Below, one piece after another: positions 129-57,886 of a stretch of 64,000 nt of DNA. The notes under the pieces are model-generated. The model did not search any database and was not told the origin of the DNA. It saw only the letters and a list, made by a program, of their open reading frames with translations. The position numbers were made by a program, and so were the translations under genes. Positions within the stretch are counted from its first letter, which is position 1, and the number at the start of each line of letters is the position of its first letter. The DNA comes from Perkinsus marinus ATCC 50983 (taxonomy: Eukaryota; Perkinsozoa; Perkinsida; Perkinsidae): the NCBI RefSeq assembly GCF_000006405.1, contig NW_003206638.1, forward strand, positions 69,413 through 133,412, in the 5' to 3' direction.

Positions 129-857
129 ATGTGTTCCTTCATTCTTCTGATCGCTCTGTTCACTGTCTTGGGCAGCGGATACGACATCAGCAAATTGCCT
201 GTGGGAGTTGCTGAGCAGTAGGAAGAGCTACGACTCCCCTGATTGATTTTGAAGTAATTGCTTGATTAGGTCTTATGACGAGAGCATCGGCAAGGGCTAC
301 AATATTGGTGAGGGCCCCTCACTGAGGGGATTATCCGGGATCCTGTAGTGATTACTATATATCACGTCAGATATGGATGGACTACCAGGGAACTCTAATC
401 TGCCATACTACGGCAGGCCCACGAATTGCACTTGGCGCGATGGACAAGCTGTTGGGAGCTGTGATTGCCCGAACGAGCAGAGCAATTTCCTGCTTCACGT
501 AGGCTGATCATGTGATCATCATAAGTGAAAAATGTTGAATCGCCACCATATTATGATGGCGCGCACCGAACTTTCCATGTAGAGCCCTAGCGGTAAAACT
601 GGCTACGCGATCTGCGCTAAGCCATGCGATCAAGCCTCGGAATGTCCTCCGGCTCCTGACAGTGCCAGTGTCGATGTCAAGTGTGTTCTGTTTCGCTGCC
701 TCCTTGACTGTTCAGGCTTCTTCGATGTAAGTTGTAGTCGGATTTCCTCGGATACGTAGCTTGTCTCCTTCAGCGTTGCACACAGGAGGACTATTCCGTT
801 TGTATGAACTACCACATGGGTGAGGAAACAGGCACCATGTGTCTATGGATCCTTTGA
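129..857 (+). CDS. Secreted cysteine-rich protein, copy 1 (five exons)
   Basis: Five exons join in frame into about 160 residues: 129-217, 270-307, 371-498, 583-726 and 774-857. The introns are 47-84 nt with GT-AG ends. The protein starts MCSFILLIALFTVLGSG, a signal peptide, followed by a Cys-rich body with spaced pairs such as NCTW, CDCP, AICAKPC and CLLDC. The exon set is supported by a second copy at 4037-4660, where exon lengths, intron phases and cysteines are conserved. Intron 2 carries a 14-nt fold-back insertion absent from copy 2. I do not recognise the family. It is probably exported and disulfide-bonded; function unknown. The window begins inside its upstream region, which is also shared with copy 2. 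Confidence 0.75.
309..328. repeat. 14-nt fold-back insertion (X-s-X'-t-X)
   Basis: TGAGGG-C-CCCTCA-C-TGAGGG in intron 2 of the secreted gene. The paralogue near 4167 has one TGAGGG, so 14 nt were gained (or lost there). Confidence 0.9.
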
Positions 858-906
858 GAACTACCGCGGATCATTCACCATTACTCACTGTTCGATTACT
901 CAGGAT

Positions 907-964
907 ATGCAGTGAGTATTTTCTTGAACGCTAATATGCAGTGAGTATTTTCTTGAACGCTAAT
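907..964. repeat. 29-bp tandem duplication
   Basis: Two perfect adjacent copies of a 29-nt unit beginning ATGCAGTGAGTATTTTC. The equivalent position after copy 2 (near 4727) has one unit. The rest of 858-1736 shows no supported gene. Confidence 0.9.
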
Positions 965-1736
965 TGAGCGACATAATAGTTTATCTCTTCATCCGATTAA
1001 TCTAATCATCCAATTTCGAGAGTTTTGAACCAAATGCTCATTCGATTCGATCGTTGTTCGAGTAGACGGTTTGTGTTAGTCATTCAGTGAACCGCTGTCA
1101 GTGATGATCGATTGACAATATGCGGATGATTTATGCATCGTGCCTATGACTAGCCTATTGTCTATCATCAGCTAAGCGAGAAGGTTCATTTTCCGAGTCC
1201 AATTTCTCGAAAGAGTGACTTCCTTGATCTCTGACAGTGTCCTTCGGAGTCGACACATGGGCTACGTCTAAGCAGCGCGTGCCACAAACTGTTTATCCAT
1301 CGACCTTACACAAGCAACTTGCTTGAAGCAAGGTCGCACCATCAATCGCCAAAGTAAGCTTATAATGACGAACTCAGTCGATTCACACACAGCCAATTTT
1401 GGTAGCTCCAAGTCGGAACTACAGCAGCCAAGGGACCTAGCCAACCATATTGAAACCGAGTGCAGAGACTCCCACCATAACTTATGGTCCATAAGTATCT
1501 CCATTCTGTACATGCGTCTAAGTTATTCCGTGTGATTGCGTGATTCACCGCTGGCATAGGATATATCACATACTGCTGATGTTGTGTGTCGAGCGTTACT
1601 TGCTCTTGAGTCTGCAGACATCTGGCGTGAGGTGATCGGGACTTCCTAGGGTTCGTGAGTGTGAAAACTGGATCATCCCGTCGGGATGGAGTAGTCAATG
1701 AATCATCGATATTGGTAGTTGCATTTGGTAGTTGTT

Positions 1737-1835
1737 ATGTGCTCCTTCGCTCTTCTGATCGCTTTGTTCACTGTCTTGAGCAGCGGGTATGATAACAGCA
1801 AACTGCGTCTGGAAAACCTTGACACGCGTCTATGA
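1737..1835 (+). pseudogene. Orphan signal-peptide exon of the secreted Cys-rich family
   Basis: ATG opens MCSFALLIALFTVLSSGYDN, nearly identical to exon 1 of the gene at 129. After SKL the sequence diverges and reaches TGA at 1833-1835. None of exons 2-5 is visible downstream, so only the signal-peptide exon remains. It could encode a 32-residue secreted peptide, but a truncated duplicate is more likely. Confidence 0.7.
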
Positions 1836-2634
1836 CATGCGTATAGACACATCATGTGTCGCACACGGTGCCTGTTTCATCTGCCATCTCGTATTCGCTA
1901 GCTTTGTGCCGAAAAACATCTGATGATCAGGTTATCGACAGTGGAGTTATCAAACTAGCAGATGGAGCTAATATCATCCGCCCAATATCTCGTATTGACC
2001 TATGGTGTGCCACTGCTCGGTCATGAGTCTCGCAACCATTCCTGGTGGTGGAGTCGCTCTCTTTTACGATTCGATCTTGGGCATCCCTGGCCTTTCCTCC
2101 CTTGGGCTACACATTTGCTTCTCCGGTGTCAATTCCAAGCCGATCATCAGTAGCGGCCAACGGCCGGTGCGTGCGAGACGAGTCTCGGTGCGGCTCGGCG
2201 CTCGCTCGCCGAGCGCGCGAGCGATGAGCGAGCACGGTCTCCTATATTTCTCTCGAGACGAGCGGCGAGACTCGCCGAGACTCGCTCGGAGAATTCCTCT
2301 CCAAGAAATTCTCATAAAGAGCGCTTTTCTGGCCACGTAGTTGGTTATCAACTATTTCCGAATAAGCTGATTCATTATTGAGGATAGTTTTCTCTTGGCT
2401 GATACAATCTCAGCACGAGGGATCATCTCTCAGAGATGAGAAACTTCAAATTGAAAAGGTTTCGACGGAGGCACTAGGACTCCGAATTTCTGAGATACGA
2501 TTTTATCGATTTGGTACTAGTTCTGGTCTAACACAAGTCGAACTCGCCCGATGGATAAATTAATTGCGGAGAGACTGCTCATCATGCAAAGTCTTTGAAC
2601 TGTAGATGCAGAGATGCAGAGCCCAGCACTGTGA
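1836..2634. other. Intergenic, with a GC-rich CGAG/CTCG patch
   Basis: No gene supported. Positions 2160-2300 are GC-rich and dense in short overlapping CGAG/CTCG inverted repeats. Open frames here lack any recognisable domain or codon signature. Confidence 0.6.
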
Positions 2635-2654
2635 TCTGATGATCAGATTCTGAT
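2635..2654. repeat. 14-nt fold-back insertion
   Basis: TCTGAT-G-ATCAGA-T-TCTGAT, perfect, next to the 3' end of the hAT remnant. Confidence 0.85.
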
Positions 2655-3101
2655 CACCTCCTCATAGAGCTCTTTTCGAAAGCATTGGTGGTTTGAATTA
2701 TCAACAGTGATTCAAGAGTATTTGGCTTCAGTCCTGTTCTACGCATACCAAGCTGATCTCGTGCACGACTAAAAATGCTCTCGCCCGAGCTACTAGTGAA
2801 GAGTACAGAATTGCGCACAGATAGCTGCTTCTGATGACAGCGGGAATGTACTCTTAGCTTTCTCCCAAAATCCATCATATGAGTCGTCATGACAAGACAG
2901 GGTGAGATACCGCTTAACCTCGAGTGCATTGGTTGTAGCATGATCGGTACACCAATGAGCGTATAGTTCCCCGATAATAGACCTCATATTACGTTGCGTT
3001 GTCCTGTCGACAAGCGAGCGATTATCGACACCACGTTTATCCCCGAACCGGAACGTGGGCCTTCCAGTTGAAAGTTCACATCGAATCCTCGCTCGCCACA
3101 A
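2654..3101 (-). pseudogene. hAT-type transposase C-terminal remnant
   Basis: Two overlapping minus-strand frames together resemble a hAT C-terminal dimerisation region. One carries GFWEKAKSTFP; the other carries SSSGESIFSRARDQLGMRR followed by TGLKPNTLESLLI. This matches the family pattern of an aromatic-rich WW..YP lead, then S-S..E..FS and a basic R..L.P...L block. A frameshift between about 2820 and 2880 separates them. No RNase-H-like DDE core or terminal inverted repeats were identified, so this is a fragment. An open frame up to 3199 may be more of it. Confidence 0.55.
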
Positions 3102-3969
3102 AAATCTTCAGTCATTCTGGTGAACCATTTTCTCCGCTCCCCTTCTAACCAACCCATGAATACAAATTGTAGTATACAATCATCTACTCCAAACATCATT
3201 GGCCGAGATGTCTTTCATTCTATGACTTTTCTGTAGCCATGTTCTTCTTTGAAAATTTTTGCTCTATTTGTCCGTATTTTTCCCTTTTTCCTGCTTGAAA
3301 TAATTTTCCAAATCTCCTTCATCTTTCCGAAGGAAAGGGGAGGGAATAACTTGTGCCACCCTAGTCCCCGCTGTGCGCAACGCTGTCTGCTTACAACGTG
3401 CGCGCCCGAATATTAGCCAGCCAGACGCGGGAATCGTAGGTATGAATATAATATTGATGAGGCAGCACTGCTACCGCAGCAGCGTTTCCTAGTTACTATG
3501 ATTGCGTTCAGACGGTGCCGGACTCCCAGTACTACTGGGCTAGTAGTGATAGGTATCATGTAGAACTGCTTTGAACTTCAAAGTTTGAAGTTAGGCATAC
3601 TATGAGCATGCATTAACACGTGAATTCAATGTTCTCCAAACCGATCTCAGGTCCCAGGAATGCAGTCACAACCGCACTCTAGGATCAAAGCCTTGACGTA
3701 GAACTTCACGTGTACACAGTAGATGTGGAGCGAGGCAAATGCCACCGCTCGTTCAAATTTAGCTTTTTCATTTTCTGTCCTTTCTGTAAACAAGTAGCAC
3801 CTGTGTGAATTGCGATTCACGAATTCTATGAATCGTGGAAACCTTCGAACGCGCACATCCGGGACCCTCAGCCCTAGATTGCACACATTCCATCACGGTC
3901 AATATAATTGGTCGTGTTGGAGCGACAGGAGGCAGCAAACCCCAACAATATTCTCGTTGCCATCCCCTC
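3102..3969. other. Intergenic
   Basis: No supported gene. Contains fold-backs at 3526-3545 (one mismatch) and 3570-3589 (perfect). Other open frames are short and low in support. Confidence 0.5.
3570..3589. repeat. 14-nt fold-back insertion
   Basis: TTTGAA-C-TTCAAA-G-TTTGAA, perfect. A second, decayed one (CCAGTA-C-TACTGG-G-CTAGTA) lies 25 nt upstream at 3526-3545. Confidence 0.85.
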
Positions 3970-5959: not shown

Positions 5960-6219
5960 CACGAGGCCGGGCCCGTGGAGGCCCTCCTATTCATCGCTAA
6001 TAATCAGCGAGGTCATGACCAGCTACGTCATCAGGCTCGTGACTGCTATTCCTTTTCGACCCGCTGACTCTCTTGGTCGTGAGATACTCTTTTCTGCCGT
6101 CCCATTGCGGAACCGATCCGAGATGTGGGCATCCGCGCTGTATACGAGAAAGCCTCCACTGTCCCGCAGCCCCTTTCTGCGACAGTCGATGGTGCCACAC
6201 AACGAATGAGAATAACCAC

Positions 6220-6789
6220 ATGATGTGGTCCACATCATCATCATCATCATCATCATCTTCGAGTTCGCTCCCCTCTTCGTCTGACGGACCTGAACTGGCG
6301 AATGATCATGTTGGTTCAGTGCCAAGCGGTGCCGCTGTTCCTCCCATTGTGATGCCGAATCGGGTGGACCAGAAGTGGCTGCAAGCGATGATGGCGGCCT
6401 TTGATAATGCACAGCAATCTAGGATGAAGCGAAGGTTGATGGATGGGGACTCAGTGGATTTGGTGGACTCAGACGATGATGATGACATCCCTCTCCCTCC
6501 TGCTGCTGCCCGTGCTGATGACGACGAATCGTCATTGACGATGAGAGCGCTTGCTTGGATTTGTAGTGTTCCATTTGTCAGGTGGTCGTCGTGGGTGACA
6601 AAGTTATTGTATTGGCAATACAGTATTGCTCGTTCCTTTCAGTGCTACATGTACAATCCGGTACAGCTACGAATCCGGAACGGGAAGATCATATTCGCAA
6701 TTAGAACTTTCAAATTCGTCATAGCACATTCATGTTCATCTGAGGGCGATAGGAAGTTCGAGTTTGTGATAGTTGAACTTTCAAATTGA
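6220..6789 (+). CDS. Open frame with poly-Ser and acidic tract, unknown
   Basis: A 189-residue frame from ATG 6220. It begins MMWSTSSSS, where the serine run comes from a (TCA)n microsatellite. A helical stretch (QKWLQAMMAAFDNAQQSRMK), an acidic SDDDDD tract and a hydrophobic aromatic C-terminal part follow. Acidic and helical content resembles gag N-termini, but no zinc knuckle or capsid motif is visible. It may be a retroelement fragment or a chance open frame. Confidence 0.3.
   Translation: MMWSTSSSSSSSSSSSLPSSSDGPELANDHVGSVPSGAAVPPIVMPNRVDQKWLQAMMAAFDNAQQSRMKRRLMDGDSVDLVDSDDDDDIPLPPAAARADDDESSLTMRALAWICSVPFVRWSSWVTKLLYWQYSIARSFQCYMYNPVQLRIRNGKIIFAIRTFKFVIAHSCSSEGDRKFEFVIVELSN
6232..6257. 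repeat. (CAT)n microsatellite
   Basis: About eight to nine uninterrupted CAT units, read as serine codons in the plus frame. Confidence 0.9.
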
Positions 6790-7848: not shown

Positions 7849-8988
7849 GGGCCTGTTTCATAGGAGCAAATTGCGCCTTAAACTTAAGTAACGCCTTAAG
7901 TATACCTTAAGTAATTAGGACATCCTATTTCACTACTTAAGTAAGCACGTTAAGGCGCCTTAAGTTTAGGAATACTTAAGGCGCCTTAAGTTTCTGTGCA
8001 TATACTCAAGTATTCACGAGAAGCATTTCACAACATGCGTACTTAAGGAGCAACTTAAGTATTTCTTAAATTTTACTAATGTATAGCCGACCCTACCTAA
8101 ATAGATACTTAAGTACCGTGTTCGAATATTGCAGCCCACAGGGGTTGAACCAGGGACCCTTCGAAGTACGATGCTTAGATATTGCATCTCGCAGGGGTCG
8201 AACCGGAGACCTTACGTATGGCAGCACGGTGCTCTCCCACTTGTCCAGAGAGGCAAAAAAATCCAACCAAGAGTTCATTTCCTTCACGCAGCAAAAGCCG
8301 AACCGAACTTCACAATATGGTCACCTTTAAGAATCAGCCACTGCAAAACGTCGAGGAGGCAATGTTTGCTGCTTGTGAGCAGGAGATGAGGATCTGGGTC
8401 AATCACAGTCATCTCGAATAACTCTGATTGACCCAGATGCTCCATTGGATGGTGTCGGGAACGCTCTTCGCAAGAGCTACGTTCGCAGATAGTTGCAGCG
8501 ACTTCGTGATATTTCAGTGATTTGCGTCACCGTTGAGTTCACATGAGTATATTTTCTACTTAGCGGACCGTTGAGTGAAAGGACGTTTATTCTAGCTAAC
8601 ATTGTAATTCGTGGGAAATCCCCTTGTAGCTCGTTACCAATGGTAACTTACCATTGATACCTTACCCATGATCGAGGAAAGTAGTTGCGAAACAGTAAAC
8701 GACCATAGAAACAGCATACCTCAGATTTGTACCTGCGCCGAACGTATGGTAAACGAACAACCTAACCACTGGAGCATTTACACCACAAAACTGAACGTGT
8801 GATTCTATTCTATACCTGTAACCATGGTTAAGTAGATACTTAAGTACGCCTTAAGTTAAGGAGCTCCTTAAGTTGCTCCTAAACGTTGTGAAATGAGTTG
8901 AGTACTTCTTAAGTATACCTTAAGTAACTCCTTAAGTTGCTCCTATATTTAAGGCGCCTTAAATTAAGTATCCTTGTGAAACAGGCCC
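7849..8988. mobile_element. TTAAG-rich non-autonomous DNA transposon (1,140 bp)
   Basis: Begins GGGCCTGTTTCATAGGAGC and ends in the inverted form TGAAACAGGCCC. Subterminal regions are dense in short CTTAAG/GCGCC repeats. The element is flanked on both sides by TTT (7846-7848 and 8989-8991), a 3-bp target duplication. A 128-bp relative with the same ends lies at 17881-18008. GGGCC ends plus a 3-bp duplication resemble Tourist/PIF-Harbinger elements, but the duplicated triplets are TTT and AGT rather than TWA, so the superfamily is uncertain. No transposase frame lies inside. Confidence 0.8.
8110..8260 (-). other. Two tandem tRNA-like modules inside the TTAAG element
   Basis: On the minus strand two related segments carry B-box-like motifs (GGTTCGACCCC and GGTTCAACCCC) followed by similar tails. 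The first also has an A-box-like TGGACAAGTGGGAGAGC and a nearly complementary acceptor pair (GCCTCTC/GAGATGC). T-stem and anticodon stem do not pair well, so these are probably tRNA-derived (SINE-like) relics, not functional tRNA genes. Confidence 0.3.
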
Positions 8989-9233
8989 TTTCTCTCATCG
9001 GATGAGAGAAATTGTCTCAGAGAATATCGACAAGAGAAGCACAAATAGTTTTTCATAGTTTTCTCGCGGAATAAAAGGAGAAGCAGACATTATTTGTAGA
9101 CAGTGTTTCGAGCCAGAGTTTGTAGGCAGATATTTCGATGACAAAAGAACCATGGAATGAGAAGGTGGAGAACATTTCGAATTATTAACTTTCTAGCCTA
9201 GAATAGAGTTCAAAAAGAGGAAGGAAGACTGGG
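8989..9233. other. Intergenic
   Basis: Nothing supported. An 11-bp inverted repeat (TTTCTCTCATC around one G) starts near 8990. Confidence 0.5.
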
Positions 9234-9253
9234 CTGAGTGACTCAGCCTGAGT
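9234..9253. repeat. 14-nt fold-back insertion
   Basis: CTGAGT-G-ACTCAG-C-CTGAGT, perfect, just after the reverse transcriptase remnant. Confidence 0.85.
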
Positions 9254-9754
9254 CGATAGTCCTTACATCTTCGCCTCCAGAAAAATCATCGATATAGCTA
9301 ACGACGATAGTGGGAAAGTATGCCCTGACAGAAAGACCAACGCTTGTGATACGCGAAGATAGTTTCAGACACTCGATCTGACCCCACAGGCCTAAGCAAA
9401 GTGTCTAAACAAATATAAATGGGCCGTAGGCGGATTACGAAGTGCGACAAGAGTAGAGGTGTGCGGAGGAAACGACGCGATTTGCCGATAAGGACTTTGG
9501 TGGTCAGCACCCCATATGCGGAGATCAAGATCATCTGGCCAGGGATCCGACAGAGTGCTGTACATCTGTGTAATCGAGTCAATGGTGGGTACTACCCACT
9601 GGGTAGAGTCATACGACGATCGAAGTATTGGCAACCATTCAGACCCGACGCATTCAGCCTCGTTTTGGAGACCTGGCGTACGGGAAATCTTCGTGGAATC
9701 AAAGTCAGTCGCATAACTGTCGCCGTCGATGGAGCCAGCCATGGTGTGGTTCAA
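9254..9754 (-). pseudogene. Reverse transcriptase remnant
   Basis: Minus-strand frame reads ...LDLRIWGADHQSPYRQI, then VALRNPPTAHLYLFRHFA and a stop. In the next frame the sequence continues LGLWGQIECLK and reaches SYIDDFSGGED. YRQI after an acidic motif-A position, followed about 90 residues later by the YIDD catalytic box, is the classic RT layout. The shift between them and missing upstream and downstream domains make it a pseudogene. The LRNP..G..YLFRH.A stretch recalls DIRS-type RTs, but clade assignment is a guess. A fold-back insertion lies inside at 9586-9605. Confidence 0.6.
9586..9605. repeat. 14-nt fold-back insertion
   Basis: TGGGTA-C-TACCCA-C-TGGGTA, perfect, within the reverse transcriptase remnant. 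Confidence 0.85.
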
Positions 9755-9796
9755 CCACAGTGGCTATCGACTCCATCAATAGCCGCCTGCCACAAA

Positions 9797-9816
9797 GTGG
9801 CAATGCCACTGTGGCA
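9797..9816. repeat. 14-nt fold-back insertion
   Basis: GTGGCA-A-TGCCAC-T-GTGGCA, perfect. A decayed neighbour (GTGGTT-C-AACCAC-A-GTGGCT) lies at 9746-9765. Confidence 0.85.
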
Positions 9817-11145
9817 TCATCAGTGCTCGGAGACTCTCGTTGCAAGCGTTGGTATGTTAGGTCGTCCTTGAGAGAGCCTGTATGTAAAATAGTGTTGGGT
9901 CAGTGTACGTCCCTTTTTGGGAGACACCCTCAGCGAAAATGTTACCCCGGGTGTAAAAATTGTCATGAAATGACAAACCATAGACCAACTCCAGTGCAAG
10001 TGACGAATCACAATAGTTGGCACGAGTTAACAGGACGGCCATGAACGGTAGATGTAAGTGAGAACAGAATTCGAGAATTTGTGGAGATATAAACATAAAT
10101 TCGAGAAATGTATTTCGGCTAACCCGAGTTATGGTCGAGAGGGTGACACGAATTGTGCAGGTGCTCGTGCGGTGAGGTAAGACTCGAGCAATTCACAGGA
10201 ATAGAAGTACGTTGTCTGAGAATCCGGGCTTCAGAAGAGGCGTGGTAGTGGATGCCACCATGGGATATAGTTATTAGAGGATCACACGTAGGCAAATTAT
10301 GGTCTGGCGGAAGGGGCAATAGCTTGATGGAGCCATCAGATGGAGCCATCAGGCAGAGTGACAGGATGCAAGACATACTTATCGGCGACTCAGTCGACGA
10401 CGCAGCTTGCGTCTGCGTTTGTCTATTGAGGAGGAAGAGACAGGCGTAAAGGAGGTAGGTAATAGCTAGGAGAATTTGCGCCTTACTGAGATAAAGAAGA
10501 GACACAAGAGCCAATGAATCATTGGCAATGATGAACAACAATGCAAAACATCAGCATATCATGCATCCCTAGGGATAGACGAGCTCATGCACTGTTATCA
10601 GGGCCACCCCTTCACTCAAGATAGCAAGTGGGAACACGGTCGCAGTCTACCCTTGAAACGCTGGGAACTACTTCTTAGCTCTGACTTAGCCTGAATATGG
10701 AGTCTGAACCCTCGCAAATGATCGTTCTTCGGGTGAGCCTTGGATACAACAGTGTGAGGAGTGATGGCCTCCGTCGAATTGAGGGGATCACGGCAGAGGG
10801 AGCATGGAGGCCGGATCGATCCAGTCGATGATCGAAGTATTGCAGTTCACGTGAATACACCTCAAACATCAGTAATGCGCGGCTGTTGGGATCCAGTGCA
10901 GAAGAGGGGCAGATAAAAAGAAGGAATCAGCAGCGAGTCGGCGGTTTGGTGGCGATCCATGGTACTTTGATGGCACGAATCCAATTAAAACCGTTTAAGA
11001 TTCTGCCTCTAAACTTGGGTAGGCCTTTTCACGCATACATAGAGATAACCCCCACAATGCCGAGATCTGAGGTATCTCCTGCAGCTGGGCTCCATATTTC
11101 TCTAGGGCACATCACTTGAAATATTCCTGTATGAGCACAATCTTC
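9817..11145. other. Intergenic, no confident gene
   Basis: Overlapping open frames on both strands lack recognisable domains. A minus frame from 10541 starts with a hydrophobic, signal-like MLFIIANDSLALVSLLYL and could be a first exon. A repeated GATGGAGCCATCA motif sits at 10326-10351. Confidence 0.35.
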
Positions 11146-11376
11146 CTACTTTTTCACATAGCGTACTACGCTAAGCGTAGGGAGTTGGAAATGTTCCACT
11201 CTTTTCCTTTTAACTGTAATTACAGTAGGTCGTCTCCCCAATGGACAATCTCCATTAGCTAAATCCTCTTGTGCGTTGCACGCAGACACACAGAGCTTTA
11301 TACATGAGGGGAAGATGCCACTTATCGCTGGCTGTGCCAGTGAGATGAGCAACACCACGATGTCGATACTCTTCAT
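11146..11376 (-). CDS. Small secreted cysteine-containing protein
   Basis: Single-exon frame of 76 residues. MKSIDIVVLLISLAQPAISG is a good signal peptide, followed by a short Cys block (SCIKLCVSACN, later GDCPLG) and a basic KRKR tail. The spacing loosely recalls the AICA..C...S.CP block of the genes at 129 and 4037, but similarity is too short to claim homology. It is transcribed away from the gene at 11559, sharing a 182-bp upstream region. A downstream exon is possible. Confidence 0.45.
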   Translation of the reverse strand: MKSIDIVVLLISLAQPAISGIFPSCIKLCVSACNAQEDLANGDCPLGRRPTVITVKRKRVEHFQLPTLSVVRYVKK

Positions 11377-13729: not shown

Positions 13730-16283
13730 GGCGTGATACAATCCGGCAATCGCTTCTCCGGTATTGTTTTTGGCAATTTCTGGTATAGGTGTTGGCAACC
13801 AAATGTTGAAAGTAGCAAATTTAAAAGTATTTTTCTAGCAAGCCGCTCTGCTTTGATCCTTTTTTTGCTGAATTGTATATTCCCCCGGAGTGTTGTACAC
13901 GCTGGCACTTTTGCCCAAGTGTGCTTCGCCCGCACGTTTTCGTTATTCTGGCAAGTTGTGCCCATTTGCTGTTTGATATGTTTTGCGTTGTAATTATAAA
14001 GTCTGGCATTTTTCAAGGTTTGCTCTTGTGGGATGTTCCTGCATGAAATATACAACTTGGCAGTTGCCGGTATGTGACAACGCTGCGCTACTTCTATGTT
14101 TCGGCTTTTTGCTCTCTTGTAACCTACGCCCTACGGGAATATATACTAGCGTTTTGCTCATTCGCTCAAACTGCGTCTCCCTTAGCACAATTAGCAAACT
14201 TGTCATTTTGCATCATTCGTACGAGCAATATACAATCGAGCAGACATTTCTCGTTCGATTACGGTATTGCCGCAATACTATTGCGCCTTATATCTTATGC
14301 TCCAGAACATGTTTGTGCCCTGTGCTGCACAAGGCACCCATGGGTTTGACCCTGGCGCGCTCAACCACCCTACTAAGTGCGCTGCACAACAACTGTTAAG
14401 TGCACAGGCTGTGCACTTACTAAATATCTTATCTATCAGACTCTGATAATCAAAGGTGTCACACCTCGTGTCTCACTTTGAGTGAGTCACTTAGTACCGG
14501 ATCAAAGCGTGATAGCACTCTAGTGAGATATATCATTCACTCCGAAGACAGCGCGAGTTATAATCAATGCTGAATACCGAAAACATGATAACTCTTGCAC
14601 GTCGCGATTGAATCAGATGAGATAACAGTTCAAATGAGTCCCCATCTTCGAGTATCCTCTCTTTTTGCATCGTTTCAATTGTGTCCCATGGTTTAATACG
14701 ATTGTACGTATTGATGACTCAACAATATCCAGAAGTTGAACTCTAAAGTAGGCATTAGGTAAGTATTACGGGCAACTTTGACATTCTACACGAGAAACAT
14801 TCACTGATGGGCAGTGGCACTTATCGGAGTGGCTTCGTAGAGCTATCCTTATGGACTGTGCAGAGGTGTAGAAGAATTGGACAGGGGTAACGCAACACAG
14901 ACAGAATTACTACACCTTTTCAATCTCAAATTCAGCAAATGAAAGAACAAATTAGAAAAATGAAATTTGATTTTAGTCGGATGAAAGGAGTTTTTCACCG
15001 AATGAAAGTTCAAATTCGAAATGAAAGTTCTTTTCGTAGACCACTCAAAAATGAAAGTTCAAATTCGTAAATGAAAGTTATGAACTCGAAAACACAAGTT
15101 GAAATTCGTCAAACACAAGATCAATGAGTCTTGTGACGCCTTCTGGCATGTGCTTCTGGCTGCCGCCTTCCCAGCCGCCGCCGGCGGCCGCGCAGCTGAC
15201 TGCCTGTCAGCCTTTCTGTCTTGCTACTACTCGATCGATCACGATAGTGACAGTAGAACTAGAGTTAGAATGAGGTTATTCAACGGAGTATCAGATCACA
15301 CAATCAGTCCACCAGACTCTGTCCAGACTATAGACCATTTCAGAGACTCATACTTATAGAAAATCCAGAGACGGATCCAGCCGTTTCTAGAATCTGACAC
15401 CGAAGGATAGATGTAAAGATTAGAACTCATATCCGAGCAATGATAGTGATGTCACAGTTCAATAACATATTAAATTGGGCGCGCGAAATATCTTGCCGCT
15501 GTTTGTGCTTGTACAAAGCCAACTTCGATAAGAACTCAAGTAGAATGGGTTTGGGAGAACGGTTTCCGCTAAGATTAACAGTGATGCCCGAATCAACGGT
15601 AAACCACGATAACAACAACTGTATCAACGACTTTAGCTATATCAGAAAGTATAGCTAATAAGTTATAATCGACTTCCTGCAAACTGCATAACCCTAATGA
15701 GGAAACACCGCGCTGCCAAGACGAGGCAACGCATTGTATATCCTGGGCGTGCGCTCTGCTTTGTCGCACATAGAAATATCAAGTTAGCGAGATTTTTGAT
15801 CCTAGCTGGCAGGGAAATCTTAACAGCCCGTTGACCGTCCATGAATTGTTGGTAAATTGGAGATATCGGGAACGCTCCTGACATTCTCGAGACGTTTATG
15901 CTTCGAGGCTATCTCGTACGGGAGGGCAAGACTATGTGTATTATTTTCACAGTGATAATTGTGTGGTGCATTGTCGATTGAATTACCCTTTTTTTAATTA
16001 ACAATATTCATACGTAGTGTTCAACATACCTCTCCTTAGTCTCAAGAGCGATCTCAGCTCGATATGTGGAATTCAATCTCTGGAGCGCTCTCGAATCTCA
16101 GGAATAATCTACTGGATACTCTTAGAGAATCTCGACGGCGGGTTTCCGTCTTGGTTCAACACTCCCATGAAATGAGCATCCAAACTCAGTGAATTTAATA
16201 CATGAATAAAACTACCTCAACGCTGAAGTCTTGTCTACGGGATAAGACAAAGGGGAGTTGCTCTACGTGTTCGCTCGGATCTG
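13730..16283. other. Long non-coding stretch
   Basis: No supported gene. Contains two decayed fold-backs (14435-14454 and 14473-14492, one mismatch each) and a GTGCACA/TGTGCAC hairpin near 14400. Between 14935 and 15115 there is a degenerate repeat of ATGAAAGTTCAAATTCG, a motif also seen inverted near 6707. Short Ala-rich and hydrophobic frames at 15099 and 15427 are unsupported. Confidence 0.5.
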
Positions 16284-40304: not shown

Positions 40305-40324
40305 ATGAGCCGCTCATGATGAGC
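40305..40324. repeat. 14-nt fold-back insertion
   Basis: ATGAGC-C-GCTCAT-G-ATGAGC. Copy 2 (58082-58114) has the same core with a further 15-nt nested palindromic gain. Confidence 0.85.
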
Positions 40325-43772: not shown

Positions 43773-44257
43773 TAGTCACACAAGAAAGCCTGGATCCAGA
43801 AGGCTGTCGGGAGAGAAAACTCTCAGAGCAACCGAATAGCCGTGAAGAGAGAGACCGAATCCCCCGGTACGTGGAACCTTGGAAACCGCCACGGCGTTGT
43901 CTTACACTTATGTGACCTGTTACTGTGCGTGAGTTCTCCTTATTACAGCATTTCGTTTCCGGCTTCTGGGGAAGGTCTCTGTGCTGAGTCTGCTCTCGCG
44001 TGCGTACGACTGCTTAGGTCGTCGCCACCCGAATACAATCGATCAGGCTATGTTTGCGTGCCCCAGCACTCATTGCTAGTGCTTTGGGAGCCTACGAATT
44101 GCCCATTATTCTTTCCGGTCGAATTTATTGGCTTATAGTAGGAATATGAGTTTCACATGACATCTGTGTCAGATATTATCAACTTCATTTCCTGATGAAT
44201 GACTCCGAGCCCTCAAATGATCCTCAGTCGTCACTGGGAAGAACCATGCGTGAGCGG

Positions 44258-44277
44258 CTCACGACGTGAGCCTCACG
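44258..44277. repeat. 14-nt fold-back insertion
   Basis: CTCACG-A-CGTGAG-C-CTCACG, perfect. Confidence 0.85.
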
Positions 44278-44682
44278 TTGAGCCCCAGGACGCTACATTG
44301 TACAAATGCATGAAAATTTGATTTCTCGGCTAGTACGGGGAGTACTCATACATTCTCTCAGCACTCTGAATGTATCCATATAACAAGTAAACACTAGGAG
44401 TTCGGTTGGCTGAATCAAACGCCGCGTGACGCGGCGTGACTCGCCGCGCGTGCCAAAAACGATCGTGCGCAGGCGTGCAAATTCCTAAGCAGCACAACAT
44501 CACTGGAGCATGGAGAATCAAATGGCATGGGAATTCACATTTCTTGCTTTGATGTGAGCACCACCACATGTGAGAAGTTCTTACTGAGAACACGTTTCAG
44601 GCGGTTGTCAACAGATTCTGATAGCGACAGTATTTCGCAGAAGGACCAGAGGATGATCACGGCTTCAATTGAGCAGTCCTAG

Positions 44683-44713
44683 ATGTTCGGAACATGTTTG
44701 GAACATCATGTTC
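44683..44713. repeat. Extended fold-back insertion with 5-nt filler
   Basis: ATGTTC-G-GAACAT, then GTTTG, then GAACAT-C-ATGTTC. This is the simplest two-X' form of the signature. Confidence 0.85.
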
Positions 44714-45276
44714 CAACGACACTATAGACTCACCAGACTCTCTGGTTACACCACGTGTGATTATCATCCCAGACTCAGCGCGACAAGGATCAACTTTAGC
44801 TTGAACAATGAGGACAACAGAGTGGCCAGAGCCTGTGTGACTCACAGGGCATAAGTCCCAGTGTAGGAAAACAGTCGCTCAGCAACACAACTGTGGCACG
44901 AAGGCTCGAAGGAAGAGATCTCGCGTCGTTGGTCACACAATTCCGTGTCTCTCCAGGAGACTCTCCTGAGAAAAAAAGCTATTGTGTCCTTCTCGTCCCT
45001 TTCCCTCTCTCGCTTCTTTACCACTATACCACCACTTCTACGGTGGAAGTTCCACCACAATGTCGTGTCTGGTATTCAGCCGTCAATTAACGGGGAAGGA
45101 GCTGCGACTATTACACTTTTAGTTTCACACCACACTGGCTATTCCGAGATAACCCGAGACCATAATGTGAGCTTAGGGGAAGTGCCAGGATAAATATATT
45201 TCCTTCCCATTACACTCATTCAATATTCGTCTGTTACAGATGCTCTTAACGCAACGCCCTGAACTGCAGACTAAGA

Positions 45277-45296
45277 GTTAATCATTAACTGTTAAT
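45277..45296. repeat. 14-nt fold-back insertion
   Basis: GTTAAT-C-ATTAAC-T-GTTAAT, perfect. Confidence 0.85.
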
Positions 45297-45380
45297 GGAG
45301 AGAACAGCCCAACAGTAGAACTGGTCAATTTGATGATGGTGAAGGCAAGTTTGCAGGGGAGTGGGCTCACTCTTTGAGAG

Positions 45381-45400
45381 TCACAATTTGTGACTCACAA
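45381..45400. repeat. 14-nt fold-back insertion
   Basis: TCACAA-T-TTGTGA-C-TCACAA, perfect. Confidence 0.85.
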
Positions 45401-45506
45401 ACGGCTCGACAAATTCAGGGATCACTTGATTTTATACAACCACCAACTTATATAGTACTCCCACACTAGACCGACCAACAACTTATGTAGTAGTCCCACA
45501 CTATAC

Positions 45507-45544: not shown

Positions 45545-45675
45545 CCAACGAGTGTGACGATAGCATCACACAACACCGCATAACTGTATTAAAAACCATC
45601 GCTCTCTCAGTAACATATGTCTCCTACGTTAGAACACCAACGCCTCGTCATCTATGTTCGTGAATAATAACAAGG

Positions 45676-45695
45676 TCCCAACTTGGGACTCCCAA
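45676..45695. repeat. 14-nt fold-back insertion
   Basis: TCCCAA-C-TTGGGA-C-TCCCAA, perfect. Confidence 0.85.
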
Positions 45696-45930
45696 GTAAA
45701 CCAGATCACTTCTTCTCAAAATTTTTACTCTTAACTTCTATAGGTGATCTACCCCGCGATATGATGGTCCTTTTTCCAAACGCACCCAAATAGGAATTTT
45801 GTCCATAGTATCCTTCCGACTTGGAAGGGTACTATGGAAGGGTACTTCGGAAGAATACTGTCGGAGTACGCCGTACTCCGACAGAGGGTGAGTTGTAGTT
45901 CTTTCATTGGTGATAGATAGATGATGATGA

Positions 45931-47175
45931 AATGATTTCAGATACATTCCGGTTAGATCAAATGTGTCCGAGGTCGTATCGAGAATCTTTAATTTCGCCG
46001 AGGCCGACTCTGTGATTGCAGCCGCAGCGTCCAAACTAGGACACTATTTTGATGCTGGTATCCTCTATAGCAGAGCTCAGAATGCCCTGGAGAAGTCCTT
46101 CAACACTGAGAGCAAATTGTTCGGGCCGCTCGAAGTTAGCGGGAACTGGATCTCTCCGTTTGACCCGTCAACGCGGTCAGTTGAGTTCTTCACTCGGGCT
46201 TTGGCAAGTCAGTATCGCTTTTATGCGCCCTTCAATGTGGACTTCCTCATCACGAAGTATGGTGACCGAAAAGTGCTCGTGAGCACTTTGAAAAGCTTTT
46301 TAGTGAACAAGTGTGTCCAGTTTACACGAGTGATAACCGTCACGGTTATCACTCGTGGTGTGATTCACGAAGAGACCGAGTTAGAAGTCCTAACTTAGGA
46401 CTCACGAGTGAATACTTTGGTCAATACGGTCACAATAACCAGCCGTCTCATCACGTTCTCGGGTTTTGCAGTCGTCCCTCAGTGGTTCCTCGACAGGAAG
46501 AGGCTCCTCATAGAGGCTGGTTAAAAATTGTTCAGAATCCGTACAGGTTGGAGATCCAAGGGCGTCATTTAGACGTCCATAGAGCCGCTCGCCATACAGC
46601 CCTCGCTTGGTTCACTTTCAAAGAGCGTTGTGACAGGCCATTGGGAGCAGCAGGCTACCTTCCTATTGGTGAGATATTATTATAATCCATCACCAGGGCG
46701 AGCGCTACACGTGCATTCGTTTGTAGGCAAGCATTATCATACGATTTTCGTTGAAAATATTCCCGTTCTCACAATCCATGAGCGAGATCAGGTGGGTTCG
46801 GGGACTGTTTGCAGCTTTTCAAAGTCGTTTATCGGAGTAATTTGGGGAAATTCCGTAAGTTTATGAAACGGGATAGTGACAAGATCATCTTGTCAAGATG
46901 TGGTTATTCATGATAATCGTGGACGTTTTACTGACTGGACTCGTGGACTGCGTGAGAAATCCCAAAACTATCGTTCGTTGTTGATAAGGTACGTCGATTT
47001 ATCACGCTCATTGACGGGTTATATGAAGCTGGCATCAAATTTACTTGACGGAGCATGTGGAGGGTCGTCGGAATGTACCGAAGTGGTGATCACCTCGATG
47101 GATTTTCTGGATCTCGACAAGAATGGAGTTATCGACAGAAACGAATTCGAGCAATACTGTCAGAGATACGGTTAA
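45931..47175 (+). CDS. EF-hand protein gene, spliced or degenerate
   Basis: The first open block (45931-46398) has no ATG at its edge and follows a TTTCAG acceptor, so it is an internal exon (NFAEADSVIAAAASKLGHYF, later YRFYAPFNVDFLITKYGDRK). Further blocks lie at 46311-46685 (RGWLKIVQNPYRLEIQGR), 46630-46858 (KHYHTIFVENIPVLTIHERD, ending near a GTAAGT) and 46876-47175. The last contains a canonical calcium loop DLDKNGVIDRNE at 47110-47145 and ends QRYG. Junctions between blocks are unclear and coincide with palindromes at 46320-46350, 46381-46400 and 46880-46899, so some breaks may be insertions and not introns. Family unknown. Confidence 0.4.
46880..46899. repeat. 14-nt fold-back insertion
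   Basis: CAAGAT-C-ATCTTG-T-CAAGAT, perfect, between two coding blocks of the EF-hand gene and just after a candidate splice donor. Confidence 0.88.
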
Positions 47176-47726
47176 GCATTCACCGGTCATATAACCGTAG
47201 TTAATGCTGAAGCGTGATACGTCGCAGTGGTCGCTACAGTTGCACATTACTGTTCATATGACGTCTTGTCTCTCACTTCCTTTTCACTCCTGTAGTCCGA
47301 CGTTTTCTCTTTGATTCTTTCACATTCTTGTAAGACTGGTTTGATTGGAGCGTTGAGTTTGTGAGTGATTGATTGGTGAGCTCATCGAAACTGTTTATCA
47401 TCCATTACTGAGTTGATAACACTGCCTGACCAGTCAGTGCAATATATCCAGTGTTATGTTATAACACAGCTGCGAAGTCTGAGTTCCTCTTTTTTCCCGA
47501 CTCGTATCATCCTGATCAGCATTCCTGATCGCACCATCGCTCCCCCCAATGGTTGATAGTCAAGTCAATAACCCTGATCATTACGGTCCGACATCTCACA
47601 ATACGCAGGAATCCTGCGGCAGGATTATCACCAAAAATTACACCACACATAAGTAAAACTTGGATCGTTTTGGCTGTGGTCAAGATAGTCAACCGTTTAA
47701 CAGAATCAAATGAGAAACAACACATA

Positions 47727-47746
47727 CTTCGAGTCGAAGTCTTCGA
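47727..47746. repeat. 14-nt fold-back insertion private to copy 2
   Basis: CTTCGA-G-TCGAAG-T-CTTCGA; copy 1 (near 33678) has a single CTTCGA. Confidence 0.93.
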
Positions 47747-48278
47747 CATTCCGTCCTAGGGGTCATCTGGAGAGCAGATTCCGTGAAATTCATGGAGCCA
47801 CTAAAGTTGCTCCTTAACTGTGCCTTAAATCTAGGAATGCCTCGACAAGCTTCTTAATAGTGTGCTATAAACTGAATGAACGCTATATGATGTATTACGT
47901 CGAGGCTTGCTGGAGTCGAACGGAAGACCCATTTTTCTCACTGACCAAGGCATACATCATAGTGGTGGCCATTCAAGCCCTTCAATACCATAAATCCCAT
48001 GACTGCTGCTCCTTGACTGATACAACACAAGATGATCTTCTCGGGTGAGAGAAGTACAGCGTAGAGCGGCAAACTGATCGTACCAATTGTAAGGTGAGAG
48101 GACTATTATGTGCTCGTATAACATGCACGAGCAAAGATACGTCAGTATGGAACGGTCTACTGTACGAACGAAAGATGTAGGGTGGTCATGATATCAGGAC
48201 ATCTCAATCAAAGCGTCCAAAAGTCAAACAGAAAGTCATGACAGGCTTCTCGCAGAAGGCAAGAGATCTAAAGTGAGA

Positions 48279-50664: not shown

Positions 50665-50770
50665 TTTATCGGGGGTGTAGCTTTGTTGCGGGAGAAGTTA
50701 CGCTACGATGCACGCATGAGCCTTGGTGGACCTCTATAGGCCAATACCTTGTACCAAAATCGATATCTCA

Positions 50771-50790
50771 CTGCTAATAGCAGTCTGCTA
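50771..50790. repeat. 14-nt fold-back insertion private to copy 2
   Basis: CTGCTA-A-TAGCAG-T-CTGCTA; copy 1 (near 36711) has a single CTGCTA. Confidence 0.93.
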
Positions 50791-51373
50791 TAACTAGATA
50801 AGCCAACTCGACTCCAGATTCTTGTAGTATACCAGCTAACTCAGTGATATGGTAGTGGCACTAGCCAGTTGTAGGGTATTTAGTTACTGTCGATCGATAC
50901 CACAAATATAAGACGGATGTAACGTCCTCTTAGTCAAGACATTCACCCACGGTGAGAAACCCAACACTTTCATCTGCGCTTCATGATGAGTTTGTCAACA
51001 GAAGATGTTTTCAACTTGCTACCAAAGTCTTATCACACCCTGATGTTACCAAAGGAAGAGATCTCAGAAGTCTCCCTCATTCCGGCGCCCTTCTGCTCTA
51101 CTAATATCGATCACCTGCGTACTTCACGTAAAAAGCTATCAATGAACAAGATTCCGCACACACTTGTGCGACATGAACTTGTAACAAACCCTACACGGAT
51201 AGATTAACTGTAAAGAAATGAAGAAAGAAAGACAGACATAAATCCTGTCATAGAATCACCGTTGGATGCGGCTGCTCAGATCGTCGTAGTGGTACGTCCA
51301 CGCGCGGCAGTCTTCCCCCCCCCCCCCAGTCGGCGACAACGTCGTTGTCACTTTCAATGAGTGACTCACTCAT

Positions 51374-52505: not shown

Positions 52506-52765
52506 TTGCTAGGATACATCATTGTGTTCGTATGTCTCTGTGGCGTGTGCAAGTCAATGATACTATAGCCGCTATAGTATAGCGCCCTTGTGTATTGTCC
52601 CCTAGCGTAAAGCTAGTCGTTATTGCGGAAGTTTTATTGTAATGTATGAACAAGTTATAAGCTCAATTTTAATTACCTTCTATGTCACAGTATCCGTCGA
52701 GTTCTAAGGGTGGGGATAATCCTGCTGATTCTAGTAAACGGTCTACACAGGCCGGGAACACTTCA
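52484..52765 (+). repeat. 5' LTR (282 bp)
   Basis: Contains the first 28 codons of gag, whose ATG is at 52682, and the 14-nt fold-back at 52564-52583. Confidence 0.92.
52564..52583. repeat. 14-nt fold-back insertion in the 5' LTR only
   Basis: TATAGC-C-GCTATA-G-TATAGC; the 3' LTR (near 57294) has one TATAGC. LTRs are made identical, so the change followed integration. Confidence 0.95.
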
Positions 52766-54496: not shown

Positions 54497-55969
54497 ATGC
54501 TACTTGCTAGCATATCGAGCATAGCTATTGATGGTGCGACTTCTGATACCATTGATGTGAATGACCATATTGCAGTAGTTCAACCGGATGAGGTCAGAGC
54601 TGCGACTAATATGACTCTGGATGACCATGGTTATACTGTAGATTGTCCTCTAATGAGTGCTCGTTCGGTAATGCCTCATGCTGAGCCTCGGAGAAGGAGG
54701 AGTCGGAGTAAGGAAATTGCTATTCATAGGAGGATTCTTATTGCTGCTCGTGAAGGAAAGTTTGCTCCTATTGATGTTGCCTCAGCGACCATTATAAATG
54801 AGGTTGTTCTGGTTGATAAGGGTTCTTCAAGTGGAGATGGTTCGTCTGTGATTCCTTTTTATGATATGACTGACGAGGAGATTAAGAAGAGGTTTCGAGT
54901 GACTCTTGACTGCCGAGGATTGAATTGTATGAGGCTTGTTAAGAAACCTGATTCCCCTGGTGAGTATATGTGGGTTTTGCCGACAGAGATGGCCGAAACA
55001 TGGAAGTTGGAATCTTCTGTTACTCAGAGTCAGACTAATGCCTTCCTTACTCTTCGTGAATGGCCAGGTCATTTACGACGGTTTTATTTCAAATTGGATC
55101 TGTCGGATGCATTTTCGGCAGTAAGAACCGCTAAGGATCCTTGGCCGTTATTCTGTTGTAAGACCTATGATGAATTTGGTCAGGAACATGTTTGGTGCTG
55201 TACCGTTATTGTTCAAGGATTTCGGTACTCTCCGATTTTATTCTCGAGAGTGGTCTCGGATGTATTAGAAGCAGCTAGAGCTGAATGTAAGCGTCTTGGT
55301 TATGATGCTGAGCTTACTCATTTCCAAGATGATGTATTGGATGGGGGCTCCTTATCTAATAATGATATGAAGAAGTCCTCTACTTTTAGGGAATGTAAAG
55401 CTCAGCTAATGTCGCTTCATCGGTTCTTACCACTGTGTATGGAGCCAGTTATTATGGTTGGTGATAATATGAATTCTGTTGGTGACCGACATTGGCATTC
55501 ACTGGAAACTAATCATTGTGCCGATGAGCATGAGATGAATATAGTTATGGAATACCAACGGTCTGTGGTTGGTACGTTATGGGTGAATCGATCATCTTGT
55601 ATATCTCTGGTGGACGCTATGGCTAGGATTTCCAAGGAGGAAGCTGACACTTTGGAATGTGATCGTCAAGACGGTTTGGTGGTTACTTTGAACCCTCTGT
55701 CATGTATGCTAGCTACCATTAATGATCTCGATGATGAGAGTATCTGTGTTATTGATGATGATGTAGAGTCGTGGAATGATATTGTGGTGGAACCTTTCGT
55801 TTGCCCCAAATTCTGTGATCTTGATGAGGTAAGAAGACAACAGTTGACGTGTCCAGAGGTTGTGGCTTTGAAAGAGCAGTCTGGTTTCATCTCTGACCCT
55901 GATGGGACGGTGTATCGTGTGCAACGGTTCAGTGACTGTGAACTTCAGTCCTACTGGTACTCTTGTTAA
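54497..55969 (+). CDS. Reverse transcriptase / RNase H polyprotein part
   Basis: 490 residues in the gag frame. RT motifs are FRVTLDCRGLN, YFKLDLSDAFSAV (motif A), VQGFRYSPILFS (motif B) and HFQDDVLDGG (catalytic QDD). Soon after come RNase H-like VIMVGDNMNSVGDRH and SSCISLVDAMARI. The distance from the QDD box to RNase H is short, so thumb and connection sequence are probably deleted. It overlaps the integrase frame by 68 nt with a +1 shift, which may be programmed or a mutation. Confidence 0.8.
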   Translation: MLLASISSIAIDGATSDTIDVNDHIAVVQPDEVRAATNMTLDDHGYTVDCPLMSARSVMPHAEPRRRRSRSKEIAIHRRILIAAREGKFAPIDVASATIINEVVLVDKGSSSGDGSSVIPFYDMTDEEIKKRFRVTLDCRGLNCMRLVKKPDSPGEYMWVLPTEMAETWKLESSVTQSQTNAFLTLREWPGHLRRFYFKLDLSDAFSAVRTAKDPWPLFCCKTYDEFGQEHVWCCTVIVQGFRYSPILFSRVVSDVLEAARAECKRLGYDAELTHFQDDVLDGGSLSNNDMKKSSTFRECKAQLMSLHRFLPLCMEPVIMVGDNMNSVGDRHWHSLETNHCADEHEMNIVMEYQRSVVGTLWVNRSSCISLVDAMARISKEEADTLECDRQDGLVVTLNPLSCMLATINDLDDESICVIDDDVESWNDIVVEPFVCPKFCDLDEVRRQQLTCPEVVALKEQSGFISDPDGTVYRVQRFSDCELQSYWYSC

Positions 55970-57191: not shown

Positions 57192-57213
57192 TGGTTATTT
57201 AGGGGGGCTGTAA

Positions 57214-57481
57214 TGTAGTAAACCGCCTCTCTCATTTGCTAGGATACATCATTGTGTTCGTATGTCTCTGTGGCGTGTGCAAGTCAATGATACTATAGCG
57301 CCCTTGTGTATTGTCCCCTAGCGTAAAGCTAGTCGTTATTGCGGAAGTTTTATTGTAATGTATGAACAAGTTATAAGCTCAATTTTAATTACCTTCTATG
57401 TCACAGTATCCGTCGAGTTCTAAGGGTGGGGATAATCCTGCTGATTCCAGTAAACGGTCTACACAGGCCGGGAACACTACA
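57214..57481 (+). repeat. 3' LTR (268 bp)
   Basis: Matches the 5' LTR except for two substitutions and absence of the 14-nt insertion. Ends CACTACA before GAC. Confidence 0.92.
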
Positions 57482-57683
57482 GACCCTCCGCAGCATTCTC
57501 AATGATGAATGCTCCTCCCTTAGGATAAACTACAATCCCTGACTTCTCCCGCCACAAATCTTCTGAGCCGCTTCCCATCGGAACCACGCCAGAAGCAATG
57601 CCGGAGCTATCGCTTAGTTATATTTAGTCTGAATGACCGACACAGCGCGTGTCGGTACCGACGGTGATGAGTGAAGAGCTCTC

Positions 57684-57703
57684 CGAGAAGTTCTCGGCGA
57701 GAA
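57684..57703. repeat. 14-nt fold-back insertion private to copy 2
   Basis: CGAGAA-G-TTCTCG-G-CGAGAA; copy 1 (near 39920) has a single CGAGAA. Confidence 0.93.
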
Positions 57704-57866
57704 CAGCCTTCACTTAGATAATAGTTCAGGTCAGTTACACATTGTAGGAAGTTCTCACTAGGAGCTCTTGAAGAGTTACTCTTCCTTCAGTCACAAAAAT
57801 TGCGTGACGCTCACTGGAGTTCAGTGAGCGTCACGCAATTTTCGTCTATCTTGAGAAGCGACACGC

Positions 57867-57886
57867 CCACAGGCTGTGGGCCACAG
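57867..57886. repeat. 14-nt fold-back insertion private to copy 2
   Basis: CCACAG-G-CTGTGG-G-CCACAG; copy 1 (near 40105) has a single CTACAG. Only 9 nt separate this from the homologous point where copy 1 gained its own insertion (40082-40101). Confidence 0.92.

Follow-up and report, generated by a model that had tools for sequence, protein, structure and literature searches.

Results

Fold-back sites in the Perkinsus marinus window

We analyzed a 64,000-nt stretch of the genome of Perkinsus marinus ATCC 50983 (contig NW_003206638.1, positions 69,413 to 133,412), referred to below as the window; coordinates are those of the window. It holds an ABC transporter gene, a gene for a 556-aa protein, recent pol frames, transposable elements, and large duplicated segments. 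It is also strewn with short fold-back sites, which very probably represent excision footprints of hAT-type DNA transposons. A preliminary description of this DNA had counted 24 sites with a perfect 20-nt pattern, in which a 6-nt word (X), one nucleotide (s), the reverse complement of the word (X'), one nucleotide (t), and the word again follow one another. A script scan for exact X-s-X'-t-X matches, with |X| from 6 to 12 and a 6x6 table of spacer lengths (0 to 5 by 0 to 5), confirmed that the pattern is real and beyond chance and raised the count to 39 sites in which |X| is 6 and s and t are one base each. The preference for this geometry over other lengths is clear: any other spacer pair with |X| = 6 gave 0 to 2 sites per cell, |X| = 7 with single-base spacers gave 1 site, and |X| = 8 to 12 gave 0 in all cells.

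The two spacer bases, previously thought to vary freely, do not. The base t is the complement of the base preceding the first X in 39/39 sites, and s is the complement of the base following the last X in 37/39 (the exceptions are at 6936 and 24122). Since the flanking bases set s and t, each site is built from an 8-mer, A = yXs', according to the formula A[1-7] + rc(A) + A[2-8], with a length of 22 nt, i.e., 14 nt more than A. The window contains 37 exact sites of this formula (canonical footprints) and 16, 16, and 24 further sites at 1, 2, and 3 mismatches, respectively, whereas five Markov shuffles yielded 0 sites at 0 to 2 mismatches and 10 altogether at 3. The sites age, as had been proposed, and the earlier view that one process, and not one repeat family, produced them is upheld.

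The single-site form was also counted for A lengths (n) of 4 to 9 and overlaps (m, the number of bases lost) of 0 to 4, each against five shuffles. The setting n = 8 with one base lost gave 37 sites versus 0 in the shuffles, and most other settings were at about the shuffled level. In the settings with six constrained bases, the observed and shuffled counts were 23 and 16 (n = 4, m = 1), 18 and 16.4 (n = 5), 38 and 15.2 (n = 6), and 19 and 17.8 (n = 7); n = 5, m = 1 (1 versus 0) and n = 8, m = 4 (4 versus 0.8) also exceeded the shuffles. The n = 6, m = 3 setting corresponds to a 12-nt form consisting of two interleaved 3-mer inverted repeats (38 in the window versus 15.2 in shuffled sequence); 4/38 of these sites overlap canonical footprints, and several are paralogue pairs. 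A spacerless form, X-X'-X with the 5-mers GAAGG and CTCAG (n = 5, m = 0), occurs at 25106, 40157, and 57933 (3 sites versus 0 in five shuffles). Two of these three are paralogues, and together they form a separate minor class, which we take to be possibly the scars of a hairpin-forming transposon with 5-bp target-site duplications (TSDs), such as Transib.

The live frames (the ABC transporter gene, the 556-aa gene, and the recent pol frames; 14,148 nt) had been described as free of sites. This holds for the exact sites (0/37; P about 1e-4), an avoidance that is expected because a 14-nt insertion shifts the reading frame; however, one longer variant (centers at 55934 and 55943) falls within the pol region. 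A 238-aa frame holding two scars had no homologue at an E value of 0.001 in a protein-level check. Outside the window, the sampled density varied: 20 stretches of 10 kb each (10 to 20 kb from the contig start) contained 4 exact sites, compared with 37 in the 64-kb window, and two hAT loci (L012 and L014) contained 4 each per 3.1 kb, with 0 at four other hAT loci.

Positions of the footprints and copies without the 14 nt

Exact canonical footprints are located at 1311..1332, 1474..1495, 2634..2655, 3569..3590, 6215..6236, 6608..6629, 14264..14285, 23909..23930, 26623..26644, 28682..28703, 29385..29406, 30343..30364, 42153..42174, 44257..44278, and 45276..45297. The remaining exact footprints could be compared with other copies of the surrounding DNA. 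When duplicates within the window were aligned, six sites showed the 14 nt in one copy and A, intact or one base off, in the other. The footprint at 47726..47747 (A = ACTTCGAC) is missing from a 96.6%-identical paralogue near 33678, that at 50770..50791 (A = ACTGCTAT) from the paralogue near 36710, that at 52563..52584 from the paralogue near 57294, and that at 57683..57704 from the paralogue near 39920. For the footprint at 308..329 (A = GTGAGGGG), the paralogue near 4169 has A without the 14 nt, and for that at 39255..39276, the paralogue near 52161 lacks the insertion and has A one base short (a 15-nt gap). The footprints at 40081..40102 and 57866..57887 are neighboring events, each present in one paralogue only: the counterpart of the former lacks it and carries its own event a few bases off, and the counterpart of the latter has A with one base different, likewise with its own event a few bases off. 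The footprint at 40304..40325 is matched by a longer, complex form in its paralogue, and those at 33555..33576 and 47604..47625 are one and the same scar, at which the two paralogues align without a gap.

Copies elsewhere in the genome (L numbers) also lack the 14 nt at several sites, including 9233..9254 (absent from L049-L052), 9585..9606 and 9796..9817 (both absent from L048-L052), 10511..10532 (absent from L049/L050), and 46879..46900 (absent from L053). The footprint at 11159..11180 is present in L048 as well. At 35225..35246, the diverged copy L057 has no insert (a 13- or 14-nt gap, depending on the alignment); at 45675..45696, L059 is 14 nt shorter, with the gap split 5 + 9; and at 45380..45401, L058, likewise 14 nt shorter, contains its own near-palindrome, which leaves the unscarred state ambiguous. 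A 13-nt tandem duplication at 10326-10352, which is not of footprint form, is absent from three paralogues (L048, L049, and L050).

Two footprints lie within repeated elements. That at 8633..8654 is inside a 1.14-kb element (7849-8988, and in L048) bounded by inverted ends of the GGGCCTGTTTCA type; its right part recurs in several copies at 93-95% identity. The element has a clean empty site in a paralogous region on C124, and its ends resemble those of PIF/Harbinger. Since 3/5 of the copies compared (L061, L062, and L063) have the same scar, this footprint is older than part of the spread of the element. The footprint at 37455..37476 lies in a miniature inverted-repeat transposable element (MITE) of the CAGAGTATT family and, among eight spanning copies (L035-L042), is shared only by L042.

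Differences of 5 to 60 nt between copies were listed irrespective of pattern, with well-aligned 15-nt flanks required and duplicates removed by script. Of 66 such insertion differences, the commonest length was 14 nt, with 25 rows that represent 23 distinct events after two pairs were merged by eye (37462 with L042:275, and L044:157 with L044:166). All 25 rows are within 3 mismatches of the 22-nt pattern. In one pair of 3.8-kb copies, about 94 substitutions are accompanied by two 14-nt events.

Long variants share the 8-bp target and the 1-nt loop

In a more general scan, we required pairs of palindromes, each with a loop of set length and arms no shorter than 4 nt, that imply one identical target (n, target length; m, loop length or bases lost). 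Within the window, 43 pairs fit n = 8 and a 1-nt loop, 37 of them at the canonical distance and 6 at distances of 9, 18, 30, 30, 32, and 82. With the same loop, n = 7, 9, 10, and 11 gave 0 pairs and n = 5 and n = 6 gave 1 each, and three shuffles of the window gave 0 pairs for n = 8. When the scan was extended to the window plus 68 loci (338,941 nt, some of it overlapping or paralogous, so that not all pairs are independent), n = 8, m = 1 gave 76 canonical and 16 other pairs, compared with at most 9 for any other combination of n (6 to 11) and m (0 to 3); n = 8 with m = 0, 2, and 3 gave 0, 1, and 0 pairs, respectively. A 9-bp target, as in Mutator-like elements, gave 0 matches for m = 0 to 3, and a 5-bp target with a 1-nt loop, as in Transib/RAG-like systems, gave 1 match, which is not above the shuffles.

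The arms of the 16 noncanonical n = 8, m = 1 cases span 4 to 24 nt. The six in the window comprise a variant at 38922..38988 with two 1-nt-loop hairpin scars (arms of 24 and 10, both A = GATGTCAC), which is a 39-nt insertion relative to its paralogue; one at 39759..39813 (arms of 18 and 6, both A = CTTCCCAT), recovered by paralogue alignment and by the scan; and, from the scan, those at 29130..29189 (arms of 5 and 24, A = ATCAGAGG) and 44683..44716 (arms of 6 and 9, A = GATGTTCC), one at 55930..55947 (arms of 4 and 4, centers 9 nt apart, A = GTTCAGTC) at the overlap of two pol-region frames, and a possible variant at 14321..14419 (arms of 5 and 11, centers 82 nt apart, A = CCTGTGCA), which is the weakest of the six. 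The long forms depart from the 22-nt shape, but the 8-bp target and the 1-nt loop persist in them, which makes target length and loop length the constant features of the process.

Perfect inverted repeats in the window showed a similar bias toward single-base spacers. With arms of at least 9 nt, 28 had a 1-nt spacer, versus 2, 1, and 2 at spacers of 0, 2, and 4, and the shuffles had almost none. Spacers of 3, 5, and 7 were raised as well, with nearly all of the spacer-3 cases being the same palindromes with an unpaired tip, and some of the 28 palindromes are canonical sites in which the arm is extended by chance. Judged by eye, the 16-nt arm at 46325 seems to have been joined at a CGT(G) match; L056 is an unscarred copy.

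In a table of opening positions, products of partial hairpin opening numbered 0 or 1 per cell, versus 37 for the full product. Classical short plant-type footprints, which correspond to such partial openings, are thus all but missing.

Base composition of the target

Within A, T is avoided at position 1 (5/72; P 4e-5), and pyrimidines are favored at position 2 (52/72; P 2e-4) and position 3 (49/72; P 3e-3). Positions 2 and 3 favor T and C, and no strong T2/A7 signal is present. For the hAT element Hermes, a target preference of nTnnnnAn has been described (PMC10368747), with T at position 2 and A at position 7 (PMC8721813). The bias in A matches this motif in part.

hAT elements and MITEs in the genome

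The Dimer_Tnp_hAT domain had 14 matches in the 54.5-Mb genome, three of which were confirmed by Pfam in frames of 529-583 aa. The hAT element on C172 (3,051 bp) has 12/12 matching terminal inverted repeats (TIRs; CAGGGGTTTATC) and an 8-bp TSD (GTCGTGGT), and the hAT-domain element on C108 (L003:258-1989; 1,716 bp) has 11/12 TIRs and an 8-bp TSD (GTGTTGAA). By eye, the latter appears nested within a RING-finger-like reading frame. No TIR/TSD ends were found within the stretches examined for the hAT loci on C254 and C25, and a relaxed TIR/TSD scan was too noisy for adding families.

The window itself carries a hAT-like MITE at 37290..37759 with TIRs CAGAGTATTCTA/CAGAGTATTTTA and an 8-bp TSD (CTCGCGGC) at 37282-37289 and 37760-37767. 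It belongs to the CAGAGTATT family, for which at least 30 match rows mark about 20 or more genomic locations. Four insertions of this family have 8-bp TSDs, namely CTCGCGGC in the window, ATCTCAGC in L043, CCCCACTC in L037, and, with one mismatch, GCGTTGGA/GTGTTGGA in L040; apart from four copies with both ends, considered in the Discussion, the other copies compared either lack an end or are second copies. At the window MITE, the two big duplicates can no longer be aligned, so that pair offers no empty site. Two fold-back insertions in the family are of other lengths: the 25-nt insertion at L037:187 could not be resolved to an 8-bp target, and the 18-nt insertion at L039:164 is a noncanonical n = 8 case (CTCCGTGC). 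At 58223, a 19-nt insertion between copies holds AGAATACTCT, which matches in reverse-complement orientation a portion of the MITE's CAGAGTATTCT terminal repeat (MITE at 37290); the insertion is possibly a leftover of imprecise excision.

Other features of the window

A DUF6740 protein is encoded at 11559-13229; among the 28 homologues listed, 25 are from Perkinsus, one is from Oxyrrhis marina, and two (P0009 and P0013) have no organism label. The product of the 556-aa gene shares 95% identity with a protein of P. marinus ATCC 50983. A 42-bp tandem repeat with six copies (97% matches) is located at 13476-13728.

Discussion

hAT excision as the probable source of the footprints

hAT elements create 8-bp target duplications (PMC4763223, PMC10368747), and after their transposases nick the DNA, the 3' end of the flank attacks the opposite strand and forms a flank hairpin (PMC6900584, PMC8151067). 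Several properties of hAT excision have counterparts in the Perkinsus data: with a 1-nt loop, only n = 8 yields matches in number; the terminal base is complemented, as a first nick one base into the flank would produce (m = 1, 76 + 16 pairs); and the genome contains hAT transposases and elements with 8-bp TSDs. The excess of 1-nt-loop palindromes in the window bears on flank hairpins only indirectly. We consider it very probable that each site is the footprint of a hAT-type excision with an 8-bp target, flank hairpins, and one base lost per hairpin. The preliminary description knew of no element or footprint of this form; hAT excision, with its 8-bp duplication, its nick one base into the flank, and its flank hairpins, predicts it. 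The hairpin-ended breaks and P-nucleotide-like complements suggested there are retained, with a stagger of 8 nt and not 6.

In the mechanism that we propose, a hAT element or MITE would insert at an 8-bp target A and duplicate it. Upon excision, the transposase would nick the flank a single base beyond either end of the element, and attack of the opposite strand by the released 3' end would turn both chromosome ends into hairpins with a one-base loop complementary to the outermost base of the target. With this 1-nt offset, the left hairpin would read yXsX'y' and the right one, once filled in, sX'y'Xs'. Opening of the hairpins at the outer border of the 8-bp duplication, or farther out, would leave long 3' tails (with flaps to be trimmed in the latter case). 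The tails would then anneal over their 8 target-derived bases, which would be perfectly complementary because both tails stem from one target sequence, and after flaps and gaps are tidied, ligation would give A[1-7] + rc(A) + A[2-8]. Failed annealing could let the tails join elsewhere, yielding longer fold-backs in which the 8-bp target and the 1-nt loop are still recognizable, and shorter, nonoverlapping openings would yield shorter scars. Deep opening of the hairpins, followed by annealing of the two 3' tails that stem from the target, would account for a uniform product. On balance, we favor the view that Perkinsus repairs transposon hairpin ends near-deterministically, with full 8-base annealing of the duplicated targets leading to the same 14-nt insertion at unrelated targets.

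Several observations weigh against this interpretation. The target bias is weak and Hermes-like in part only. Of the 66 insertion differences, 41 are not 14 nt long, and only three of these (15, 15, and 7 nt) fit the pattern within 3 mismatches. Four MITE copies with both ends (L035, L036, L038, and L039) have no clean 8-bp TSD. An element still occupying a footprint site was not seen among the copies compared, and the joined flanks of four hAT/MITE insertions matched neither an empty nor a scarred copy. The published hAT footprints consulted are mostly mixtures, unlike the Perkinsus scars. Finally, the genome has matches to Ku (two short ones, and one above the cutoff with two internal stops), so the annealing is not simply attributable to a loss of classical end joining. 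Such a loss is unsupported as the reason for the uniformity, given the Ku matches and an SNM1/Pso2/Artemis-type DRMBL domain, predicted in a 395-aa open frame (G000:C122:824619-824825), that marks a candidate hairpin-opening nuclease. Both pattern scans miss palindrome-free scars and so give an upper bound on how much of the repair is canonical; the list of insertion differences still ranks 14 nt first.

Alternative explanations

If the scars are due to hAT excision, the uniform product might reflect a specific nuclease that opens the hairpins exactly at the outer edge of the TSD, without any selection by annealing. The exclusive recovery of the full product (37 versus 0 or 1 in every cell of the opening-position table that stands for another product) would suit such an enzyme, but the arms of 4 to 24 nt in the 16 noncanonical cases indicate that the opening position is not fixed, and annealing of any sufficiently long tails yields the same product. 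We regard the exact-edge version as a minority possibility, clearly less probable than annealing.

The superfamily assignment is a separate question. Target lengths differ among other transposon families with 5 bp for Transib/RAG and 9 bp for Mutator. The 8-mer unit carried by the 37 sites does not agree with the former, and n = 9 gave no match at any offset, which argues against the latter. Another, non-hAT superfamily that makes 8-bp target duplications and flank hairpins could gain from the partial resemblance of the target bias to that of Hermes and from the fact that the responsible element was not caught at any site examined. Such an origin is nevertheless unlikely, given that hAT domains and elements with 8-bp TSDs exist in the genome and that flank hairpins with a 1-nt offset are described hAT chemistry (PMC8151067).

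Replication fold-back or template switching without any transposon, which had been named as the alternative, is more doubtful still. Template switching generates inverted repeats, and some long fold-backs are indeed present in the window; however, it predicts neither a fixed unit length of 8 nor a fixed 1-nt loop, no agreement of two palindromes on one 8-mer while the arms vary from 4 to 24 nt, and no base bias within A. Although whole-genome amplification can yield inverted chimeras, an assembly or amplification artifact is hardly credible, as dispersed copies share scars (8633 in L061-L063, and 37455 in L042) and the scars decay through 1 to 3 mismatches, avoid coding frames, and show a target bias.

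Comparison with known systems

P nucleotides and microhomology are familiar features of hAT footprints, and what sets the Perkinsus scars apart is their uniformity. As in the Ac/Ds and Tam3 footprints of plants and yeast, terminal bases beside the element are complemented, P-nucleotide palindromes are centered on the complement of the adjacent base, and joints show microhomology (PMC5873905, PMC1978519). Those systems produce mixtures: in Candida, 128 Ds excisions gave 28 different footprints (PMC5873905); in yeast, palindrome arms reach 20 nt in a broad mixture and are at least 3 nt long in 66/140 footprints (PMC5873905, citing Lazarow 2012); and in human cells, TcBuster leaves small, varied insertions and deletions (PMC3499496). 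In Arabidopsis, one Ds left the same footprint in 11/17 cases, although this was not the 22-nt form (PMC1978519). In Perkinsus, by contrast, one full-length product dominates at unrelated targets. The 8-bp target length is shared with Hermes, which has an nTnnnnAn preference (PMC10368747) and forms flank hairpins (PMC6900584); the Perkinsus evidence consists of genomic scars and not biochemistry, and the Perkinsus bias matches that preference in part, is weaker, and reaches position 3. The alveolate Amoebophrya, a parasitic dinoflagellate, likewise has short repeats, both inverted and direct, in its introner elements, but these are introns with inverted repeats of 8-20 nt and direct repeats of 3-5 nt (PMC7789003), whereas the Perkinsus scars are 22 nt overall.

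Among the matches listed in searches of a literature collection with few subscription journals, no title or abstract opening pointed to the 22-nt form or to Perkinsus footprints. V(D)J coding joints made by RAG and Artemis involve flank hairpins and short P nucleotides with no fixed 8-bp duplication; the Perkinsus scars would share the hairpins and P nucleotides and differ by their full 8-nt inverted insertions.

Implications

If our interpretation is correct, a simple sequence scan would count past hAT excisions without any comparison of strains, because the scar itself records the target and the hairpin offset, and the decay of the scars would roughly order the excisions. Excision scars would also contribute heavily to the small insertions that distinguish the copies compared here. 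The repair of hairpin ends in vivo would become testable in an alveolate, as would the question of why one product dominates in Perkinsus while Candida, yeast, and human cells show mixtures (PMC5873905, PMC3499496).

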